From a virus: a stretch of DNA of 22,323 nucleotides. The notes beneath the pieces were generated by a model. The model searched no databases and was not told where the DNA came from. It saw only the letters and a program-made list of their open reading frames with translations. Positions 11,801 through 22,323 of this stretch are shown piece by piece. How positions within the stretch are numbered: position 1 is the first letter of the stretch; the number at the start of each line of letters is the position of its first letter. The stretch covers positions 1 to 22,323 of IMG/VR virus record IMGVR_UViG_3300006736_000101, one strand, 5' to 3'. A program made the translations under genes and the position numbers.

Positions 11801-13257
11801 CTACAGAGAATCCCTTTTCTATATCTGATGTATCTTCTTTAAATAATATAACAGCTTCAAGTGTACAAGATATGCCAGTAGAGAAGACAGAGTTTAGAAA
11901 TCCTTACATACTATCAGGAATGGAGTTTACGGATTTCCCTGATAGCACTTCTAAGTTTTCTTTTATTAATCTGGACGATACTAATGCTTCGGTAGATAGA
12001 GATAACTATGTTATTAACAATCCTTTAGTGGTCGTAGATACTAAGAACTCATTTCCCAGACTAAGATTTAATCTTAAGGATTATGGGGCTAACGAAAATT
12101 TCCTAATCCCAGAAAGAGATTTTAAGTTGTCAGTGAACGCGGCCATAGGAACTAAAAACTCTGATATTTTAGGTGGGGATAATATAGGAGCTTGGATACA
12201 CACAGATGTAGAAGATGATTATCATGGTAATAAAGTATTTTGGAACTTTATGCCCGATGGGTCCTGGCGAAAGTTAGATGCAGCTATATTACAAACTAAA
12301 GGAGCAGTTAATTATGTTAAGCAATATTTAACTCATTCTTTGGATTATTCAGATCAGTATACTATAGCTACAGACCCATGCCCAGCGTTTACTTCGGATA
12401 AAGATGTTATTGTAAGTATGCAAGAAGAGGATTTTATTACTCGTTCTGTAGACTTTAATACTAGAAATATAAAAATTAAAGTTCCGTACTCTTACTTTAA
12501 AGCTAAGAATCAAGTACATAGAACATCTCAAAATTACATAGTTGAAGTATTTAGTTATGACAACACAGCACTGGATAAGTTTATTATCTTTGATTATGTC
12601 TCTGTAGTAGATATTCGTCAGTCTTCAAGAGATATTGTTAAGCATCCAATTACATACAATACCTATTCATTACCTAATACAGTATTAGACGATTTAACTT
12701 TCTTGGATAGTAAAGGTAATGTGTTACCAGAAGGGACAAATCTAGATTCTGATTCTAATGGAAATATATCTACCTCTTCTGGGGATAAAGTTACTACTAT
12801 AGTTGCCCAATCCCCAGGGCAAATACAATCTTTGGGTATTTTATATGATCAGATGACAATACAAAATCCTTATTCCTGGGTAATTGATGATTCTTCTAAT
12901 GTAGTTAGGTTTGAAGAATATCTATATGATGGGGTATTTTCGGTAGGAGCTTCAGGTACAGTGATTCCTTCATCTATAATACTAGAGGGTAAGGCTAAAG
13001 GTTCTAATGTAACTATTAGTGAAGTAGCTAGTATATCATTAGATGGAGAAGAGATACTAGCTATATTAAGAGAGTTCAATAGATTACAAACTAACTTAGG
13101 AGCTAGAGATAAAACTATAAATGCTCCTTTATATGGACCAGAAGGTGGAAGTAGAATAAATTATAGAGTTGCTCCTATTTGGGCACAAAATGGTGGGGTA
13201 ACACAGTTTGAATCAGGTAACTCCAGACAATACTCTGATATAACGGTAGAAAACTAA
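8839..13257 (+). CDS. Very large baseplate wedge protein, gp7/P2 gpI-like
   Basis: The 1472-residue protein follows gp6 directly, the position of T4 gp7 (1032 aa). Residues about 315-400 carry the P2 tail protein I pattern: Cys-Pro-Pro-Arg-Leu-Leu-Lys-Tyr-Val-Ala-Asp-Leu-Ile-Gly-Trp-Asp, then Trp-Arg-Arg-Gln-Leu-Leu and Tyr-Lys-Gln-Arg-Gly-Thr-Lys-Lys-Gly-Leu. These helices bundle with gp6 and gp25 in contractile baseplates. The N-terminal 300 residues include a cysteine cluster at 102, 111, 116 and 121. The remaining 1070 residues are strand-rich, without a family I can name, and probably form the peripheral arm that carries rim proteins. Near the C-terminus (about 1390-1440) is a helix with Ile-Leu-Arg-Glu-Phe-Asn-Arg-Leu-Gln-Thr. 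There is no visible SD; it starts on the TAATG overlap with gp6 and ends on another TAATG overlap. Confidence 0.75.
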   Translation: MTTNRFYKRNYKDALDYIIPEVYFTQDLTLSGTQPDAIDSIINSHINFCINQPTILSISAAGTFSSINEVSSLSRWFIPQNKINNLTAKEFEIQILHPLGICMGDLNGMQCTYYSCPGNECNTNFSGVPYTNIVNVFKDTLFPKIILNSGSLESTTNSAFSNSASGTHEYLINRLGWIYFLNTASAGDASSYIASSLADMYVSGTNFSVKDGIKGLSYYVYNNWPSLSSTYPGLLPSDYTSGTATYVSGTQPLDRLHTLIDVIYSDQYSNKDDTYVRDAFDDYVANSTLLTGRERAGPFSKFIKGVSYSFFDTRDEVERLESLYDIENCPPRLLKYVADLIGWDLKGSNPEGWRRQLLFATTLYKQRGTKKGLYNAITTVLPGVELEESSISEFYESYIPYLAYYLLNTDSALFESLSTWTQEEAFKYTGGEYDPASLDNNVRIVIDHMMLKAVTRFPELFYVKNFKFDLTNPDFVFFYRGRSFSIPPWEEEKFYMDCESTPSFLQFIKNELICLGVSYEHATNFYNYAADNISHKNLDTRFYNNGLLFFTSSINLPPNESTILDNYKVEKYKYLPLWNAKSSHFNVSVSSGSFTDSFFNSTIYTKQDFFQSLSIVDEFSPAKSIPRTHVDLQQVETLSAITFNCPSVRYLLYDISLSGFPGSVQSSGVDIRNIPYAVGGDFPTPDNSSRARNDHTNLPVYKRDFVDSPGDFSQLAGSSVSAVPLTQVDRTNVRRRDFSKTLQKGGWYTRTGQNMPSYFNTSSQGVDTEFAPLGFVNILYKYNPVINPYDLDEVSGYPHDLNVWSPCWTLNSDKEMSGIYASSTFDIRGSSALVSSTCDSYVRRERTPEFQRVLHKLLDKKYEGEARAIYAENKSLLDTSAYLDPIASLKNILWSNGSDDTSEIYSFILGNRRFSRDSIDGMHKMFKDYIDYFTNTGIGNGLLDTYTDGGANILSHVYGPLFLNGRFTLDGSALDATVSSTLEATTMATENPFSISDVSSLNNITASSVQDMPVEKTEFRNPYILSGMEFTDFPDSTSKFSFINLDDTNASVDRDNYVINNPLVVVDTKNSFPRLRFNLKDYGANENFLIPERDFKLSVNAAIGTKNSDILGGDNIGAWIHTDVEDDYHGNKVFWNFMPDGSWRKLDAAILQTKGAVNYVKQYLTHSLDYSDQYTIATDPCPAFTSDKDVIVSMQEEDFITRSVDFNTRNIKIKVPYSYFKAKNQVHRTSQNYIVEVFSYDNTALDKFIIFDYVSVVDIRQSSRDIVKHPITYNTYSLPNTVLDDLTFLDSKGNVLPEGTNLDSDSNGNISTSSGDKVTTIVAQSPGQIQSLGILYDQMTIQNPYSWVIDDSSNVVRFEEYLYDGVFSVGASGTVIPSSIILEGKAKGSNVTISEVASISLDGEEILAILREFNRLQTNLGARDKTINAPLYGPEGGSRINYRVAPIWAQNGGVTQFESGNSRQYSDITVEN

Positions 13258-15221
13258 TGAAAGGCATAGTAGAAATTTACGGAACTACAGAAGAGGGAAG
13301 AAAGGATCTTCTTTATTCTGATGATAATATGACAACAGTTGGGTTCTCTGAGAATATAGTTGATATGTTAACTACTCCGTCTTCTATACAGTACCCTACC
13401 GCACTCAACAGCGCAGCTTTAGATTCTTCTAATTATACTATACAAGCATTTTCTATGTCTAAAGGGAAGGATCAGTTTAAAACTAATCAACACGCTTACT
13501 CCACTGACAACCTGCTACATAATTCAGACTTAGACGATACCTCTGGGTGGACCTTAACCAATGTTACACTGACTAAAAATTCTGTAGAGGGAGACACTTT
13601 TAATAGTAGTGGGCATTTATTAAACGCTGATACTAGTTCTGGTTCTTTGTCCCAGGCGATACTGTATGATGGTACAGATGGAGCCTTTGGGGCACCTTAT
13701 TTTAGTGGAACAGATTTTGTATTTGGTGTAGATGTAAAATTAAATAGAGGTGATCCTCCTGTTCAGGTTTCTGGCACTACTAATGAGTACATAGGGTATT
13801 CTCAAATAGCTCTTAGTTCTTGTAATAATTTATTCCAAACTAGTATTAAATGGGATAATAGGGGTGTAGCTGTATTAGATGATACTGTTGGGTGGACTTC
13901 CTCCTTAGCAGGTATTAAGGATATTGGAGGAGGATGGTATAGAGTATTTGTTCATGGTTTATATGCTAGTGGGGGATCTACACATCCAACTACAGCATAT
14001 ATCTATCCATCTGTGGGGGAATCCGCAGATGCTTTAGTAGATACTACTACTTATCCTGTAACAGGAGGTGCGGGATCTATTTACATAAATAGACCACAAT
14101 TAGAATTAGGTACTCACCCTACTAATTATGTGAAAACATCTTCTTTCCTCACCAGAGATAATACTTTAGCGTACTCTAGATTAAATTCCACCGCTCCTTA
14201 TGGAACTTTTACCGATGCTGAGGGTGATAAGGTAGCTTTCAAGTACTATGTGGTTAGCGGTTCGGGTGGGCAGACCCTAAGTGGCCTGTACGGCTCCTCT
14301 GTGTCCGACCTGGGCGTTTCTGCGTATATACCCAATCCCACCACCTTAATCCCAGCAGCGCACCCAGAGGACACTGAGCTAACTCTAGGGGCAATTACCC
14401 CAGTTGAGGAGGCTTTTGGAGTTCAAATAACTAAAGGTCAGAATAGTGCAGTTCAAAACTTAGGAGACTCCTTGTATGTAAGTTCTTTTGATTCTTCTTG
14501 GTCTTACAGCAGTAAGTACACACCTGTATTTGGTAGACATTTAAGTTATGTTGGAACTTTTGGTGTGAGTAGTGATGTATTATCTTCTGGAGTATCGGCA
14601 ACTGCTCCTGCTGCATCTTTAGTTTACTTCGTATCTGCTTATGACGAAAATGGATTAGCTAACCCGTTATCAAGTACTCCTTTATATCAGGGAATATGTC
14701 AGGGGAGTAATATTCGTTGCAGCATGGATGCGTATGGGTATTGGATCATGCATAGAAATGGAGAAAGTTATCTACCTACCGATTATTCTTTTGGTGGTCC
14801 ACAGAACAAATGCGTAGTGGAAGCGGAATTGGATTTTTCTTCTACTGGAGAAATACAGTATCATATGAGAATGGTAAATATGTCGGGTCATGACGCAATT
14901 GGTTGGGTGGTATATGGAGGGCATAATTCTGATTCTGTCTTACTAAATATTTTCGGTGGAGTAAATGTTATAGGTTTGTGGGGACTAGATTTAAAGAAAA
15001 TTAAAGAAGATAACATAGGAGCATTTCCTCCCTACCGAGCTAAGTTCCAGCATCAGAGGTTGCTCCAAGGTGGAACAGCTTACCCAACTAGAAGATATAA
15101 ACTATACAGTAAAAAGGTATTAACAGATAATATAATGAAGAATGAAGGCTTGGGTACATCGGCTGGTATATTCGGTGATTATTTGAACCTAGACTTGTAC
15201 TGGAAGGTTAAATTCATATGA
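13257..15221 (+). CDS. Baseplate-rim or tail-fibre protein with carbohydrate-binding-like domain
   Basis: This 654-residue protein looks modular. Residues 1-70 form a module shared with the next two genes (Gly, hydrophobic, x, Ile ... Gly ... Leu-Tyr ... Asn ... Thr ... Gly). Residues about 85-295 resemble the carbohydrate-binding-like jelly rolls of phage fibres: an Asn-Leu-Leu-His-Asn-Ser opening, Trp-Thr-Leu-Thr-Asn-Val-Thr-Leu-Thr, Trp-Tyr-Arg-Val-Phe and the closing Pro-Gln-Leu-Glu-Leu-Gly-Thr-His-Pro-Thr-Asn-Tyr-Val. Residues about 332-385 are encoded by a GC-rich island. The C-terminal 90 residues contain Val-Ile-Gly-Leu-Trp (571-575) and end in Tyr-Trp-Lys-Val-Lys-Phe, matching the second shared module. 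It starts on a TAATG overlap without a strong SD and its stop overlaps the next ATG. Adhesin or rim decoration is the likely role; no enzymatic motif is seen. Confidence 0.6.
   Translation: MKGIVEIYGTTEEGRKDLLYSDDNMTTVGFSENIVDMLTTPSSIQYPTALNSAALDSSNYTIQAFSMSKGKDQFKTNQHAYSTDNLLHNSDLDDTSGWTLTNVTLTKNSVEGDTFNSSGHLLNADTSSGSLSQAILYDGTDGAFGAPYFSGTDFVFGVDVKLNRGDPPVQVSGTTNEYIGYSQIALSSCNNLFQTSIKWDNRGVAVLDDTVGWTSSLAGIKDIGGGWYRVFVHGLYASGGSTHPTTAYIYPSVGESADALVDTTTYPVTGGAGSIYINRPQLELGTHPTNYVKTSSFLTRDNTLAYSRLNSTAPYGTFTDAEGDKVAFKYYVVSGSGGQTLSGLYGSSVSDLGVSAYIPNPTTLIPAAHPEDTELTLGAITPVEEAFGVQITKGQNSAVQNLGDSLYVSSFDSSWSYSSKYTPVFGRHLSYVGTFGVSSDVLSSGVSATAPAASLVYFVSAYDENGLANPLSSTPLYQGICQGSNIRCSMDAYGYWIMHRNGESYLPTDYSFGGPQNKCVVEAELDFSSTGEIQYHMRMVNMSGHDAIGWVVYGGHNSDSVLLNIFGGVNVIGLWGLDLKKIKEDNIGAFPPYRAKFQHQRLLQGGTAYPTRRYKLYSKKVLTDNIMKNEGLGTSAGIFGDYLNLDLYWKVKFI
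14251..14410 (+). other. GC-rich island within the 654-aa fibre-like gene
   Basis: By hand count 92 of 160 bases (57%) are G or C, whereas the following 40 bases are 33% and neighbouring sequence looks clearly AT-rich. Codon choice changes with it: CTG, CCC, GGC, TCC and GCG codons replace the TTA, CCT, GGT and TCT seen elsewhere. The reading frame continues without interruption through about 53 codons just after the carbohydrate-binding-like domain. This suggests a recently acquired segment or a recombination patch. Confidence 0.6.
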
Positions 15222-18200
15222 GAGGTAAATTAAATATACAGAGGGTGGATAGGACTACTGGTGAAAGAGAAGTGGTTTATGAAGCTTACAACCAGATAAC
15301 TCAAGGCATCAAACACGCTTTTGTTAATGTGCTTACAGGTACAGGATCTGATAAAGTAGAGGACTATAAGTTCAGATACTTCCAGTTAGGAGATCAGAAG
15401 TACGATTTAAGTAATTATAATGTTTCAGCAGATATAACTGATGCGTCCTTAAAATCTAAATTCTGGACCATTAAAAGTCCTTTGACGAAAGCAGCTTACG
15501 GTATTAACAGTAAAATGGGAGTTACTAATTTAAATCTTTTTGCTGTGGGTTCCGTGCTTCCTGTTGACGACACCACTGTTATTGATAATTTTGTAGATCC
15601 CCCAGACGCAACTAATATGGTACATGATTACTCTAATAATTTTGGGTGGCCGTCTGATGGGGTTGATCTTAATAGAGGGAATCAATTATCTAGAATGCCT
15701 ACTGTTTGGGATTCTGGTTGTGCAGATGCATGGGAGCCTTTACCAGAAAATAAAAATATATCACCCTTGTCTGCACATGCGGATTACGATATGTCTGGGC
15801 CTGGATTTACTGCCCCAACTTATAGAGTATCCTATACCTCAAGTAGAGATCTTATACAAGATGATGGTGTCTCTCCCGAGTTTACGGAGTCCTGTATTAA
15901 ACCTGGATTTGGATATGTATTCAAAGGTGGGGTTAACGCTGGTAAAAGTATGGGTGAGATACCTTATCTATGGAATCCTATCAAGAAAGATCAAACCATG
16001 TCTTATTATACGGCTGGTGTTCATTATCTTTCTAGTACTACCCAGGTATCTGGGACTCCTACTGCTGGAGCTTGTCAGTTGTTTAATAGGATGGCTATGG
16101 CTCAAATTCATACTACAGCAGGACAAAATAGAATGGAGTTTGCATATAGGTATGATTATGATAATGTAAGTGCTACATATACCCCCTCTGCTTATTTTGT
16201 TTCTAGTGGTTGGCAAAGGAACGAAGATAAAAATGGAGATTCTGCTGAGAAATTCTTAGCAGCGTTCGGTTTATCTTCCGAAGAAGAGTATGGGGTTGTA
16301 TCAGGTAATATTTATAATAGATATGGGCCTATCTACACTTATCAAAATCATTTAGAGGGGTATGTTTCCGCTGGTGGCGCAGGGGCTGCTTACATGGATA
16401 CATCTAATGTAGGATTTGGTCCTAGTGGTAATTTTTATAGGGTTTCAACATCTTGGAACAATGTTCCTGATGGTATTATTGATTTTTATAAAATGACCTC
16501 TACTGGTGCTGAGTTGAATGGTGGTTTAGCTGTTCCTTTCGTTATCCCTATATGCTCTAGTCTTGCTGCTATAAATACAAGTTTACCTTTTAATGTATCA
16601 GCACATCAATTCCCTGGTACAGTTCCTAGGTCACAAGTATACTTATCCCATTTCCAATGGGAGTTTAATCCAGAAGTTTCTCCTAATCAAGTTCACATAG
16701 GGGAAAGACCATTCTTTGTTACCAAACCTCAGGATGTAGTGACTATACCTGAAGGACACTCTACCAGATTACATCCTAATACAACTAATGTAAGGTTAGT
16801 AGTGGACGAAAATTTAGCAAATAATCAAACAATTAATGAGGTTGGTGTATTACTTAAAAATCCAGGAGGCAATGCGGGTAAGGATGTGCCTTATTTAGCC
16901 GCATATAAAGCCTTAGAATATCCTTTAAATAAAAGCGATCAATTCTCTTATCTAATAGATTGGGAGTTTAGTTTTATAGATGAGGAGTATGAGTATGTTG
17001 GTATAAGGACTGCCTACTTTAGAAATTCGCAGCCTACTAGGTTTGAGGGATGGCTTTTCCCTACGGCTGGTGACCCAAAAGTTAATCAGCTTACAGTCTA
17101 CCCAGACTTTAGAGACGCTGATTCCAGCGGTTATGTATACTATGATGTAAATATAGATTTAGATTACCCAGCTTCTGCTGGAACTGAAATAGCATATACT
17201 GTTTCGGGAACAGGAACTACTAATAACTATCTTGTAAAACAACCATGGTCAATAGTAGAGGGTTATGAATCTCCTTTATCTCTAGGGACTTACGACACTA
17301 GTACTTTTATTAGAGTAAGATTGGATGCGTCAGCAGGACTTTCCACCTGGAATGAATATAGTCTTATATTTAAATTAGTTCCAGCGGGATCTAGTAAGGT
17401 AGAATTTCCATCCTCTTATTCAATGGCTCCTTCTGATGAGTTTAGATTGTATTCTAAGACTGCTGTAGTGTCCTCAGTTATGGACGGAGCAACCTTTAAA
17501 GGATGCACTATGCCTCCTGTGTTGTGGTTTAGCGGTACTGCACCTGAGGGGCCGAAGGAGTCCACCATAGCTGTTCCTGTGATGACACATGGAGACTCAG
17601 GATTTGGATTACCCAGCCTGAATGAGCCCTGTTATTGGTATTGGACTTCGGCTGGAGGGAATCTTGTTTCTGGCGATGATTGGCTTATGACTGACTCTGG
17701 TGGGAACGAGGTTTCACAAGGGGAGTATGTTATCTCTGGGGATAATCCAAAAATATATATCAAATCTCTGAATGCTAATACAGGAACAATAAGTATATCA
17801 GGAAATTATGAAAGAGTGGATTTAAGTGCCCAAGGAGTTAGTAGCTTCTCGTTAGTTAGTGCTATGGACGAAAACTTATGGAACGGGACCGATAAATGGA
17901 GTTCCATGTGGCCTAACGACCCAAATAATCCACCGGAACAGTTATCAAAAAATGTAAATAGGGATCTTACTTGGCCTGATACTCCTAGTAGTGGCACTTA
18001 TGTATCAAACTCACATGTTTTTCATGGTCCTATACTGAATTTACCAGATACAAGTGCAACAGACTCTAGGGGTCGTCCCCTTAGGGTACATTACATAACT
18101 TCTAGTTATGCCTCTGATATAAATGTAGAACCACACCCCGCCCATGAGAGCCCAGAAACTAAAATTCCTTATATGAGAAAGGATTTGGAGGGAGAGTATT

Positions 18201-18910
18201 TCGCAGACGGGGCTTTAGATTATTACCCTATCAAGAGATACACTTTATACGCTGTAAAGGTACAAGATCCCTCTCCCTCTAGTGGTGGTATGGTCTTATC
18301 TGGTGGTCCTGGTAGTGATTATGGCCCTTCTCAATACTTTAGAATCTCTTTAAGGGATAAAAGCGCAAATGTACAAGTTTCTTCCTACCCGTTGGCCTAT
18401 CACCCAGATGGTCAATCTAATGCTACCGTAAACTTCGATCAGTCTGCTGGTAATGGCTGGGTGGTTTGTACAACACAAGATGATGACTACCCTAAAGGTT
18501 CAGGAGATAATCCCCCTGATGTTAGTGGTGGTGTGGTTTCGGGTACTGATCATGCAGGAAATGCTGAGTTTACTTTGTGGGTACTTAGAGATGATGAGCC
18601 AAGTTTAGCTAGGAGGACCTATGCTGGAGTTAACATGTTAGCAAGACCTATATATTGTCCTTCTGGTTCTTTAAAAGAAAGTGCGCTTGGAAGTGATTGG
18701 GCTATGTTAAGTGGTGCCCTTTGTATGTATGACCCATTCCTACAAAGTTACGCTTCTTCTGCTCATCCAGATATAATAAATCTAGCTTCTAATATATTAC
18801 CTGAATTTTGGCCTCTAGAAGCTAACCAATGGGAACCTAGAGGGGGATTCGTTACCCCTAAGGCTGGGTCTACATTCTCTAATACATTTACTTTATCGGT
18901 GACAGGATGA
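15218..18910 (+). CDS. Large multidomain baseplate-rim or fibre protein
   Basis: This 1230-residue protein shares an N-terminal module (about 1-65, Arg-Gly-Lys-Leu-Asn-Ile ... Gly-Glu-Arg-Glu-Val-Val-Tyr ... Asn-Gln-Ile-Thr-Gln-Gly) with its neighbours. A second module lies at about 500-592, containing Ile-Asn-Glu-Val-Gly-Val-Leu-Leu-Lys-Asn-Pro (539-549), Tyr-Leu-Ala-Ala-Tyr and Trp-Glu-Phe-Ser-Phe. In the 194-aa neighbour these modules are almost adjacent; here about 430 residues are inserted between them and about 640 are added after. The segment about 635-720 weakly resembles a Calx-beta-like sandwich. The rest is strand-rich, Ser/Gly/Pro-rich and unrecognised. The start overlaps the previous stop (ATGA) and has a good SD, GGAAGG at 15202-15207. 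A structural host-contact or rim role is inferred from position and composition; no catalytic motif is seen. Confidence 0.55.
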   Translation: MRGKLNIQRVDRTTGEREVVYEAYNQITQGIKHAFVNVLTGTGSDKVEDYKFRYFQLGDQKYDLSNYNVSADITDASLKSKFWTIKSPLTKAAYGINSKMGVTNLNLFAVGSVLPVDDTTVIDNFVDPPDATNMVHDYSNNFGWPSDGVDLNRGNQLSRMPTVWDSGCADAWEPLPENKNISPLSAHADYDMSGPGFTAPTYRVSYTSSRDLIQDDGVSPEFTESCIKPGFGYVFKGGVNAGKSMGEIPYLWNPIKKDQTMSYYTAGVHYLSSTTQVSGTPTAGACQLFNRMAMAQIHTTAGQNRMEFAYRYDYDNVSATYTPSAYFVSSGWQRNEDKNGDSAEKFLAAFGLSSEEEYGVVSGNIYNRYGPIYTYQNHLEGYVSAGGAGAAYMDTSNVGFGPSGNFYRVSTSWNNVPDGIIDFYKMTSTGAELNGGLAVPFVIPICSSLAAINTSLPFNVSAHQFPGTVPRSQVYLSHFQWEFNPEVSPNQVHIGERPFFVTKPQDVVTIPEGHSTRLHPNTTNVRLVVDENLANNQTINEVGVLLKNPGGNAGKDVPYLAAYKALEYPLNKSDQFSYLIDWEFSFIDEEYEYVGIRTAYFRNSQPTRFEGWLFPTAGDPKVNQLTVYPDFRDADSSGYVYYDVNIDLDYPASAGTEIAYTVSGTGTTNNYLVKQPWSIVEGYESPLSLGTYDTSTFIRVRLDASAGLSTWNEYSLIFKLVPAGSSKVEFPSSYSMAPSDEFRLYSKTAVVSSVMDGATFKGCTMPPVLWFSGTAPEGPKESTIAVPVMTHGDSGFGLPSLNEPCYWYWTSAGGNLVSGDDWLMTDSGGNEVSQGEYVISGDNPKIYIKSLNANTGTISISGNYERVDLSAQGVSSFSLVSAMDENLWNGTDKWSSMWPNDPNNPPEQLSKNVNRDLTWPDTPSSGTYVSNSHVFHGPILNLPDTSATDSRGRPLRVHYITSSYASDINVEPHPAHESPETKIPYMRKDLEGEYFADGALDYYPIKRYTLYAVKVQDPSPSSGGMVLSGGPGSDYGPSQYFRISLRDKSANVQVSSYPLAYHPDGQSNATVNFDQSAGNGWVVCTTQDDDYPKGSGDNPPDVSGGVVSGTDHAGNAEFTLWVLRDDEPSLARRTYAGVNMLARPIYCPSGSLKESALGSDWAMLSGALCMYDPFLQSYASSAHPDIINLASNILPEFWPLEANQWEPRGGFVTPKAGSTFSNTFTLSVTG

Positions 18911-18951
18911 AAAGAATAGTACTGATTGATGAGAGGTCTAAATACTTATAA
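18907..18951 (+). CDS. 14-codon minicistron bridging two fibre genes
   Basis: A 14-residue reading frame (MKRIVLIDERSKYL) starts on the ATGA overlap with the 1230-aa gene and ends on a TAATG overlap with the 194-aa gene. It exactly fills the only gap in the cluster. Its first codons resemble the start of the 654-aa gene (17 of 24 bases identical; MKRIVLI against MKGIVEI), so it may be the decayed head of a lost paralogue. It may alternatively serve only to carry ribosomes across for coupling. AGG directly abuts the ATG, too close to act as an SD. Translation is unproven. Confidence 0.3.
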   Translation: MKRIVLIDERSKYL

Positions 18952-19535
18952 TGAATAATAAACAAGCAATGAACCCTACTGGGCATCTGACAATCTTCAA
19001 AAAATATGAAGATGGGTCAGAAGAATTATACTTTGACGAAAATAATGTCGTTACTTCTGGGATGGCAGTAGGATTCTCTCATCTATTTGCTGCCTCTGGT
19101 GGAACTAGTATAGTGGATTATCAGATTGTTAACTTTTTAGTCGGTTCTGGGGTTACTGATCCTACTGATTATGGAACATCAACCTTCCAGCTTAGAGCCC
19201 CTATTTTAGGTGAGGCTGATTGGGGATCTGACACAGGACTCGTATTAGAAGATTATTATCCTATAGAGGATGGAAGTATCTTAGGATCTACTAGAGCTTT
19301 TGCACGAATTCGTTTTAGTAATATACATAAAGTAACAAGCACATCTGTAAGGTATACTTTAGTGTTAGATAGGGATACTTTAAATGGGAAGACTTTAAAC
19401 GAGGTTGGACTATTTATGAGAAATCCTAGAGGGAGTGTAACCCCTAACCCAATTCTAGCAGCCTATAGACCCTTTACAGAAATAACAAAGACTAGTGATT
19501 TTAGTCTCATCTTCCGCTGGACCCTACAGTTCTAA
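18951..19535 (+). CDS. Small baseplate-rim or fibre protein, minimal version of the shared module
   Basis: This 194-residue protein appears to be the compact form of the fold shared with the two preceding genes. Residues about 7-65 show Thr-Gly-His-Leu-Thr-Ile ... Asp-Gly-Ser-Glu-Glu-Leu-Tyr ... Asn-Val-Val-Thr-Ser-Gly. Residues about 130-194 show Tyr-Thr-Leu-Val-Leu-Asp-Arg-Asp, Thr-Leu-Asn-Glu-Val-Gly-Leu-Phe-Met-Arg-Asn-Pro (148-159), Leu-Ala-Ala-Tyr and a terminal Phe-Arg-Trp-Thr-Leu-Gln-Phe. The first ATG has a distant SD-like GAGAGG (18931-18936, 14 bases away). A second in-frame ATG at 18969 gives a start (Met-Asn-Pro-Thr-Gly-His) closer to the paralogues' N-termini and could be the true one. 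The stop shares a base with the next ATG. A structural role is inferred from context. Confidence 0.58.
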   Translation: MNNKQAMNPTGHLTIFKKYEDGSEELYFDENNVVTSGMAVGFSHLFAASGGTSIVDYQIVNFLVGSGVTDPTDYGTSTFQLRAPILGEADWGSDTGLVLEDYYPIEDGSILGSTRAFARIRFSNIHKVTSTSVRYTLVLDRDTLNGKTLNEVGLFMRNPRGSVTPNPILAAYRPFTEITKTSDFSLIFRWTLQF

Positions 19536-22323
19536 TGGCCTTCAACTCAAACGACTTATATACCGTTTCTGGTGGTATTGATATATTCAACTACTGGAAC
19601 CCTTTTGTTACCAAGCATGATTCTTCTTCTTTCTATAATTGGGAACAAGATAATCTCCCCTCTTATGATTTAGAGGAGAGAACTTTTTACTTGTGGGAAA
19701 GGTTTGGGTATCATTTATCCGCAGTACCTTCTATGGCACTTGTGGTGTCCTCTTCTGTACCTACTCATTTAGGACTTAGTGCAAATGTGTTTACCTCGGT
19801 CTCTGCTGCTGTGGAAGCTCTCCCAGAGATAATTAGAATGCCTACTCTTATAGAGGTGGCTGTTAGTGGAGATATGGGCGAGCTAAATCTTAATAATATT
19901 AAGTGTGAGGAAGATGGGGCTTTAGAGATTATTAACAGAGGGTTTGCCCCTATGTTGGAGTGGGTTAACGTGCATTCTGATTTCAAAACTAATACTACAG
20001 TACTGGTAGAGGATAGTTGGGACCCTAATCATGGTATACCAAATCAGCTTTCGGGAGCGGGGCCAGTAAACTTTTTAACAAATGCTAGTGCATTATCTGT
20101 GTCTGCTAATACGGCAGATCTATTCCCCGCTAATGGAACGGCTGGATTCTATAGAAATTTATCCTATGCGGCGTTATCAACCTCAGGTGGCGTAGTCCCT
20201 TATAAGACTGGATATGGTGTTGTTGGTGGGTCTAAGGCTGGGGGACAAACATTTAGAAGCTCTAACATTGTATATGTTTCTCCATTGGTCCCTACTTCCT
20301 ATGCCCCTACTCATCAATATGATGATGAAACTATACTTTCGGATGTTTCAAGTACAGCAGGGGATAGGTCTAGACCTGGACAAGGGCAATTGGTTAATGG
20401 TATTATAACTGCTAATAAATTCTCTAAGATTAAGCTTCAAAATTGTGATGGTCCGATATACATTAGAGGCTTTATAGCTGATGGGTATAATGATACTTCG
20501 GACACATTTGATACCGATATAGGAATTGGTGTGTATAATAGTGCGGGTGTAGTCTTGGAGGATTGTGGTGCTATGAGATGCACATCCGCAGGATATGAAT
20601 TGGTTAACTCTAAAGTTGAGTTAGCCAGAAGAAATCTATCCATGAGAAATTACGATACTACTAATAGATTTGATTGGGGCCTTGATGGTAAACAAAATAT
20701 TACTTATGGAATTAAAGCCTCCAATAGTGAGCTTACTTACTCCCCCAGTAAAGGGGATTCTTCATTATCTGCTGCTAAGGGTATTTGTGGTGGTCTTGCA
20801 TCTTATTTTAATACCTATGGAATACACCTAACAAACTCTACCCTTAAGGGTGGAGATAAAATGTCAGGGGCTATGGCTTTAGGTAAACTTAAATATAAAA
20901 CAAGTGTAGAATTAGGTTATAATGATGTTGGTTTGTATGCTACTAACTCTAAGTATTCATTAAATGGTATAACAGATGTATACAATAACGAAACCAATAT
21001 AAAAGCTATAGGAAGTGATATAAGAACTGAAGTATTTAATAATGAGTACGGAGCCAAAGAAGGTATAGTTCTTGAGAATTCAAAGTTCATACTTAATAAA
21101 AATTTAAGTCAGCAGGTTGGTGCTTTAGGGGTTTCACTTTATAATGTAGCTAATACTGTATATGGGTCATATCCCTTTGTACATAATACTAATTTTAGAC
21201 ATTTAGTATTAACTGAAGGGTCTTATTATGGGTTTGATTTCCCAGCAGACTTTTCTAGCCTTTCTTTAGATAACCCTGGTGGAGATAGAATATTTAGTAA
21301 AAATATATTTAATACGTCTTTTGGTACTGATTACGCTGGTACATATGTGCCCAGTATACAAATTAATAATTCTTATGCTGTACTTTCATCGCCATTTATT
21401 ATAAGTGATGACTCTATGACAGCTAGTAGAGCTATAAAGGGAAGTGCTATACAGGTTAATGATGGTGGTGTATGTAAATTAATTGGCAATGGGAGTGATG
21501 GTTGTATGACTAGTATATTTGGACCAACAAGTTTTTCTACACAACAAAAATTAGCAGGGGTAGCAGCACTAAATGGGTCTAAAATTTATATTCATGGTCC
21601 TACTGAAATAATTCAATATGGTGTAGATTTATTAGCTGAAAATAATTCTATTATAAAAGTATGCCCAATTCTGGATAATACTAATTCACACTACGATATA
21701 TCTGGGTATGGACAATTAGGTACTCAAACTACTTTAGAGCTTCACTCTACTAGGGCATGTGCAGTTGCAAATAATAATTCTAAATTAGTGTTTGAAGACT
21801 TAGGCATGTTTGAATATTCCTGGCCCTCATCAGAAAGTGATACAGCGGATTATACCGTTCCTCAGTCTGTGTCTGGTATTATTGCTAGTGGTAGCTTGCA
21901 ATTTTATCCTAACCCACAGTTAAATAGTATGGCTCACAGTGATTTAGTTAGCAGACCTGATGTTGATCTTCCTACATTAAATGCCCCATTTAGTGGTAAT
22001 GCTTTTAAAAGTAAAAAAGATAATTCCATGGGGGTTTATAGATTGATGTGTGAAGATGATTATGGTCTTGCAGGTACAGCGCAATATATACGCGATAATC
22101 TTTCTAGGGGTGGGGTATGTGTTAAGGCTACTGGAAATAGTGAAGTTGTTGTTAGGAATGTTCATTTCCCAGCAGCATATTTAAATTCGGATCAATCATA
22201 CTTTGATCCGTCTGCTAGTGTGGCGGGATGTAATGATTTGTTTATATGGAATATACAAGATTCCTCTAAGCTAAATGCTAGTTACTCAACAGTAAGTGGT
22301 GTCTACCCATCGTTGAATGGTTA
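19535..22323 (+). CDS. Parallel beta-helix-like tail or baseplate protein (3' partial)
   Basis: An open frame of 929 codons begins on a TAATG overlap with the previous gene and runs off the window without a stop. The first 90 or so residues (Met-Ala-Phe-Asn-Ser-Asn-Asp ... Asn-Tyr-Trp-Asn-Pro-Phe) probably form the attachment domain. From about residue 105 the pattern is of short strands broken by Asn/Asp/Gly turns, typical of a right-handed parallel beta-helix. A recurring turn of the form Gly-hydrophobic-x-hydrophobic-x-Asn-Ser-x-hydrophobic appears near residues 333, 357, 398, 434, 472, 515, 611, 680, 703 and 748. Such proteins occur as phage fibres, spikes and depolymerases. I see no clear pectate-lyase or hydrolase active site and make no catalytic claim. 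No SD precedes the ATG. Length and C-terminal domain are unknown. Confidence 0.68.
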   Translation, partial: MAFNSNDLYTVSGGIDIFNYWNPFVTKHDSSSFYNWEQDNLPSYDLEERTFYLWERFGYHLSAVPSMALVVSSSVPTHLGLSANVFTSVSAAVEALPEIIRMPTLIEVAVSGDMGELNLNNIKCEEDGALEIINRGFAPMLEWVNVHSDFKTNTTVLVEDSWDPNHGIPNQLSGAGPVNFLTNASALSVSANTADLFPANGTAGFYRNLSYAALSTSGGVVPYKTGYGVVGGSKAGGQTFRSSNIVYVSPLVPTSYAPTHQYDDETILSDVSSTAGDRSRPGQGQLVNGIITANKFSKIKLQNCDGPIYIRGFIADGYNDTSDTFDTDIGIGVYNSAGVVLEDCGAMRCTSAGYELVNSKVELARRNLSMRNYDTTNRFDWGLDGKQNITYGIKASNSELTYSPSKGDSSLSAAKGICGGLASYFNTYGIHLTNSTLKGGDKMSGAMALGKLKYKTSVELGYNDVGLYATNSKYSLNGITDVYNNETNIKAIGSDIRTEVFNNEYGAKEGIVLENSKFILNKNLSQQVGALGVSLYNVANTVYGSYPFVHNTNFRHLVLTEGSYYGFDFPADFSSLSLDNPGGDRIFSKNIFNTSFGTDYAGTYVPSIQINNSYAVLSSPFIISDDSMTASRAIKGSAIQVNDGGVCKLIGNGSDGCMTSIFGPTSFSTQQKLAGVAALNGSKIYIHGPTEIIQYGVDLLAENNSIIKVCPILDNTNSHYDISGYGQLGTQTTLELHSTRACAVANNNSKLVFEDLGMFEYSWPSSESDTADYTVPQSVSGIIASGSLQFYPNPQLNSMAHSDLVSRPDVDLPTLNAPFSGNAFKSKKDNSMGVYRLMCEDDYGLAGTAQYIRDNLSRGGVCVKATGNSEVVVRNVHFPAAYLNSDQSYFDPSASVAGCNDLFIWNIQDSSKLNASYSTVSGVYPSLNG

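Follow-up and report, generated by a model that had tools for sequence, protein, structure and literature searches.

Three consecutive genes of a marine contractile-tailed phage, here designated A, B, and C, probably encode paralogous connectors of the baseplate periphery that link the wedge protein BW3 to the fibres and have two sites at which further domains can be plugged in. We put the probability of this reading at roughly two in three. The genes lie in a stretch of 22,323 nucleotides (positions 1 to 22,323 of the IMG/VR record IMGVR_UViG_3300006736_000101), which we call the window. Each paralogue would include two modules, the N-terminal one with the order beta-beta-helix-beta and the C-terminal one with four strands (signature NEVGLF ... 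AYRxF ... WTLxF), packed together into one small domain. C appears to be this small domain alone, with residues 1-89 as its N-module and residues 113-194 as its C-module.

The features of the region are listed in Table 1. The order BW1-BW2-BW3-connector-large protein in bacteriophage A511 (gp102-gp106) is the same as in the window. The tblastn matches of BW2 are gp6 of P-HM2 and other myophages. The BW3-like protein matches Pfam Tail_P2_I with E 6.7e-4 and 20.0 bits, slightly below the cut-off of 20.6. According to PMC10811340, the BW3 family includes P2 gpI, T4 gp7, and A511 gp104. We presume that the 1472-aa product is the string that carries A, B, and C. The full length of D is 1198 aa in the relative L004, and its place and size resemble those of A511 gp106 (1151 aa from its coordinates). 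The first 140 residues of D are its best-conserved part in many relatives.

Table 1. Baseplate genes of the window and the modules of proteins A, B, and C (positions of the window)
Feature	Positions	Strand	Evidence
BW1, gp25-like baseplate wedge protein, 147 aa	6783..7226	+	Pfam GPW_gp25 2.9e-9, PHROG 43 2.3e-10
BW2, T4 gp6/J-like baseplate wedge protein, 538 aa	7223..8839	+	PHROG 219 3.9e-33
BW3-like protein, 1472 aa	8839..13257	+	Pfam Tail_P2_I; synteny in relatives
Gene A, 654 aa	13257..15221	+	
A N-module, residues 1-91	13257..13529	+	HHalign to B and C N-modules; AF2 E-E-H-E
A variable insert, residues 92-555, first half beta-rich	13530..14921	+	gap size in 99 relatives
A C-module, residues 556-654, GGVNVIGLW ... 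WKVKF	14922..15218	+	HHalign; AF2 strands 532-652
Gene B, 1230 aa	15218..18910	+	
B N-module, residues 1-100	15218..15517	+	HHalign 99.8% to C N-module; BLASTP 2e-4
B loop insert, residues 101-499	15518..16714	+	missing from bare B of L057 and others
B C-module, residues 500-589, INEVGV ... WEFSF	16715..16984	+	BLASTP 4e-10, HHalign 99.95% to C
B C-terminal extension, residues 590-1230	16985..18907	+	641 aa in window; 1-57 aa in bare/insert-only forms
Gene C	18951..19535	+	
C, putative bare two-module connector, 194 aa	18951..19532	+	AF2 pLDDT 84; Foldseek; PHROG 5417
D, large protein behind C, 929 aa up to window end	19535..22323	+	synteny

When the AlphaFold model of the bare unit C (pLDDT 84) was compared with the PDB using Foldseek, the first three matches listed were two chains of A511 gp105 and the phi812 arm segment, with probability 0.92 and E 4e-3 to 1.6e-2; all remaining listed matches had probabilities of at most 0.11. 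The TM-scores against gp105 are 0.34-0.40 with a large rmsd. Among viral models, baseplate proteins of Eldridge and LP65 are also present. The matches closer than gp105 include tail fibres of some podophages as well as proteins without characterisation. The whole model of A (pLDDT 62) had no baseplate connector among its 50 listed PDB matches. HHalign of C with A511 gp105 or T4 gp8 gave at most 3.6%, within the range of shuffles; gp105 and gp8 themselves align with a probability of 31% only. Searching PDB sequences with the C profile gave no hit, and tblastn with the window C gave no match in phages. Because the E-values and TM-scores are modest and no profile links C to gp105 or gp8, we do not claim membership in the connector family as proven.

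C also matches PHROG 5417, an insert-free, unannotated profile of 156 positions. Residues 19-194 of C align to positions 20-156 of this profile (E 3.8e-7), and it is matched by 68 of the 69 C homologues. The same profile matches single-copy proteins at the connector position of Campylobacter phage CP8 (5e-57), Vibrio phage D69, and P. putida phage Aura, for which HHalign with C gave 82%, 98.7%, and 97.6%, respectively. In all three phages the C homologue sits two genes past the gp6-like wedge gene, and this position gives independent support for the connector reading. In T4, gp8 stands right behind gp7 (gene order 6-7-8). PMC10811340 reports the same connector fold for gp8 and gp105; gp8 differs from C in being a single-copy protein of 334 aa without profile similarity to it. 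Most likely the scaffold joins wedge and fibre in the manner of T4 gp8 and A511 gp105 and is not a fibre in its own right.

The strongest competing explanation is that the scaffold is a general anchoring domain of tail fibres and that A, B, and C are short fibres or spikes rather than BW3 connectors. Some viral-model matches do carry the annotation tail fibre (Xanthomonas phi31, Stenotrophomonas Ponderosa) or tail collar fibre, and A and B do bear large domains. However, C, a bare unit of 194 aa, has no part that could reach the host, its gene occupies the place of gp8 and gp105, and its top listed PDB matches are gp105-type structures. Pfam assigns no family to C up to E 1, and among the 69 C homologues it detected no tail-collar or fibre family, only unrelated chance families. 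We consider the fibre explanation unlikely but give it some weight because of the tail-fibre-annotated proteins among the viral-model matches. Far less probable is a correspondence to gp10-gp11-gp12 of T4, which reportedly have been viewed as a triplication at the periphery: as in T4, the trio does consist of three consecutive periphery genes that share an architecture and follow the wedge genes, but neither C nor A has gp10, gp11, or gp12 among its 50 listed PDB matches, and the scaffold stands directly behind BW3, in the place of gp8.

An earlier note, made from the sequence of the window, had proposed that A, B, and C share an N-terminal stretch of about 60 residues and a second module with a hydrophobic-N-x-[VI]-G-[LV] motif, closed by W-x-hydrophobic-x-F. 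The motif begins at residue 569 of A (VNVIGL), 539 of B (INEVGV), and 149 of C (LNEVGL), within one residue of the proposed positions, and the closing element was located at residues 649, 582, and 190. The motif is rare, with only four occurrences in the 7817 residues of the window ORFs. The likeness of the modules exceeds what chance would give. BLASTP aligned C with B at the C-terminal end (130-194 to 522-586, 37% identity, E 4e-10) and at the N-terminal end (22-77 to 15-70, E 2e-4). Taken alone, A showed no significant BLASTP similarity to B or C (against C, E 0.033, confined to the N-end). Therefore profiles were needed, and we built them from 91 A, 41 B-position, and 69 C sequences of relatives taken from IMG/VR.

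HHalign connected the modules of B and C with probabilities of 99.5-99.95% overall (99.8%, E 3e-30, for the N-modules; 99.95%, E 2e-38, for the C-modules). The N-module of A aligned to those of B (98.1%, E 8e-14) and C (96.6%, E 7e-10), so the proposed similarity of the N-terminal ends holds for all three pairs. The C-module of A is the weakest link: 79% to B and 46-63% to C, the comparison at 46% scoring 26.1 versus at most 15.1 across 40 column shuffles. The alignment of A with C pairs GGVNVIGLW with LNEVGLF, as the note had suggested, YKLYSKK with ILAAYRPF, and LDLYWKVKF with FSLIFRWTLQF. Control pairs of wrong modules reached 0.2% at most. Thus B and C are paralogues, both end modules aligning in the same order. 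They form a close pair; A, also a paralogue, either diverged earlier or has evolved faster.

The predicted structures of A and C agree with this result. In A the ends are of moderate confidence and the insert of low to moderate confidence. Its N-end consists of E2-11, E16-22, H30-39, and E62-68, and its C-end of E532-540, E571-577, E614-621, and E642-652; the corresponding elements of C are E10-19, E24-31, H38-47, and E59-65, then E132-139, E148-156, E168-179, and E184-193. The order of strands and helix is identical at both ends. It is accordingly very doubtful that A is unrelated to B and C and only short motifs converged: the low probability for the C-modules of A and C and the BLASTP value limited to the N-end would fit convergence, but the N-modules of A align at 97-98% to those of B and C, the C-ends align in order and above all 40 shuffles, and the two models agree in element order. 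The middle of A had been described as carbohydrate-binding-like; this label was not confirmed. The region is beta-rich in the model, the Foldseek matches of the whole A model are weak, and no Pfam family, carbohydrate-binding modules included, matches it.

To describe variation of the cluster we annotated 195 sequences with HMMs and obtained 99 distinct complete loci (distinct by the first 60 residues, unclustered); clustering at 75% identity left 91 A, 38 B, and 71 C-type sequences. All 99 loci share the gene order BW3-A-(B)-C-D, with A directly behind BW3. Genes A and C without B occur in 54 loci, all three in 40, and other sets in five (an additional C-like copy in four, a mixed copy in one). 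A bare C copy stands immediately before D, and C has a length of 190-231 aa in every case except one, an extra copy of 723 aa in L083. The inter-module loop of A varies from 164 to 818 residues. B occurs in four forms: a bare scaffold (217-272 aa), a form with the loop insert only (567-631 aa), a form with the C-terminal extension only (742-1009 aa), and a form with both, represented by the window (1230 aa). No correlation was found between BW3 length and the number of paralogues.

Trees of the scaffold were built without inserts. The window B falls inside a clade of 10 rows with loop inserts of 372-417 aa (starred support of 100). The C copies form one group of 71 rows (starred support of 99), which also includes three extra copies from the position preceding C. 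Among the tail-bearing B proteins, the starred branches require no fewer than three changes of label. A second bare C-like copy stands where B would be in L074, L077, and L180; the copies of L074 and L180 fall among the C proteins in the tree, so further duplications are likely. The extra C-like copy of L083 (6787-8958) has an unrelated C-terminal extension of 521 residues without Pfam or PDB match, and we regard it as an independent re-invention of the B form.

The cleanest case of insertion is protein A of L048, which is the window A with an RCC1 propeller of about 290 residues inserted at window residue 98; the two proteins are 66% identical over residues 1-98 and 49% over residues 98-654. 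RCC1 repeats were detected in six of the 91 A proteins and Kelch repeats in one. Loci in which RCC1 propeller repeats lie within a phage structural protein include L140, L142, L136, L144, and L159, some with several matched stretches. The B tails of L010, L063, and L170 are mutually related (L010 and L170 are 24% identical, E 1e-15) and have a nucleophile-elbow-like motif GFS[NQ]GG. The tail of L170 matches alpha/beta-hydrolases (AXE1 4.7e-4, 4q82 1.3e-3); these matches are weak, so the assignment of the three tails as a hydrolase-like domain is likely, not firm. The window B tail has no detectable relationship to the L012-type or hydrolase tails. The A insert gave 84% against B tails in HHalign, resting on a single 31-column motif. 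That the inserts of A and B are the same domain was not supported (HHalign 0.7%).

These comparisons show that B has two insertion sites, the inter-module loop and the C-terminus. The earlier view of a duplicated scaffold with fixed ends and varied inserts is borne out by the relatives, among whose B proteins the loop insert and the tail can each be present or absent, and by the RCC1 insertion in A. The sizes given for B need a correction in part: the tail, put at about 640 residues, has 641, but the insert has about 399 rather than about 430. The suggested role as a platform for diversification fits the domain gain in A and B; it does not extend to every copy, since C is a nearly invariant bare unit. 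From the type of the domains and the location in the baseplate, the inserts probably alter what the virus touches on its host.

Several published systems resemble parts of this arrangement. In the BW3-tail fibre network (BW3TFN) of A511, a single BW3 chain runs through three gp105 dimers like a string through beads, and the dimers connect it to the receptor-binding proteins (PMC10811340). In addition to the fold matches of C, the likeness includes size (173 aa for gp105 and 194 aa for C) and a gene position with BW3 on one side and a protein of some 1150 aa on the other. The same source describes one gene for the three dimers, whereas the present phages have two or three paralogues that have diverged, two of which bear inserts. 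Agrobacterium phage Milano has two connector-fold paralogues, gp125 and gp127, which are about 30% identical; their place is a garland around the distal ends of spikes and fibres, with no inserts reported in the available part of PMC10811340. Bacillus phage Vp4 gp119 is a published instance of a decorated unit of this kind, a gp105-like connector with two carbohydrate-binding modules missing from its relatives (PMC11406892). It is one gene with one cargo type, in contrast to two or three paralogues with two sites and several cargo types. Thus single-copy connectors, one paralogue pair, and one sugar-binding-decorated connector have already been published. Their combination, an expanded connector set with swappable inserts, was not found in the literature searched, which included few subscription papers.

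If A, B, and C are connectors, they would form dimers seated on the extended BW3, by analogy with A511 gp105 and T4 gp8. They would occupy successive BW3 positions and join the wedge to host-contacting proteins, D included. Since two or three different paralogues replace one repeated connector, each position could have its own cargo. As the relatives show, the inter-module loop and, in B, the C-terminus tolerate insertions and have gained RCC1 and Kelch propellers, a hydrolase-like domain, and a 400-residue block, whereas both ends of the scaffold and the final unit C have changed little. Domains that bind or process the host surface could thereby be added without disturbing baseplate assembly. 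A more speculative extension is that each arm might be a BW3-threaded hetero-chain in which every bead is an independent two-site socket for enzymatic or host-contact domains and C the constant terminal bead, and that archaeal filamentous viruses might use the same connector fold, possibly at the ends that contact their hosts.

The distal fibres are where one usually looks for host-range variation of tailed phages. In the present family it is apparently the connectors close to the wedge that were duplicated and became sockets accepting whole domains such as beta-propellers and hydrolase-like enzymes. On this reading, a group of large structural genes of marine phages that lack annotation would receive both a name and a mechanism. 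The natural series of bare, insert, tail, and combined forms is a ready comparison for assigning function part by part.

The best viral-model match of C is protein B2CRN3 of Betalipothrixvirus uzonense (E 2.8e-9, TM 0.60/0.70). Archaeal-virus proteins match the C fold better than A511 gp105 does, which suggests, at the level of models, that the fold is a module common to different virus realms. Further fold matches were SIFV Q914H2, AFV1 ORF274, and haloarchaeal tailed viruses. Two relatives provide hints on hosts, not proof: one lies in a genome bin of Altibacter (L259), and the other, a contig of 130,604 bases (L258; L010/L011), is also filed under the single-cell genome Prochlorococcus sp. 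AG-409-P03, pointing to a cyanobacterial or co-sorted host.
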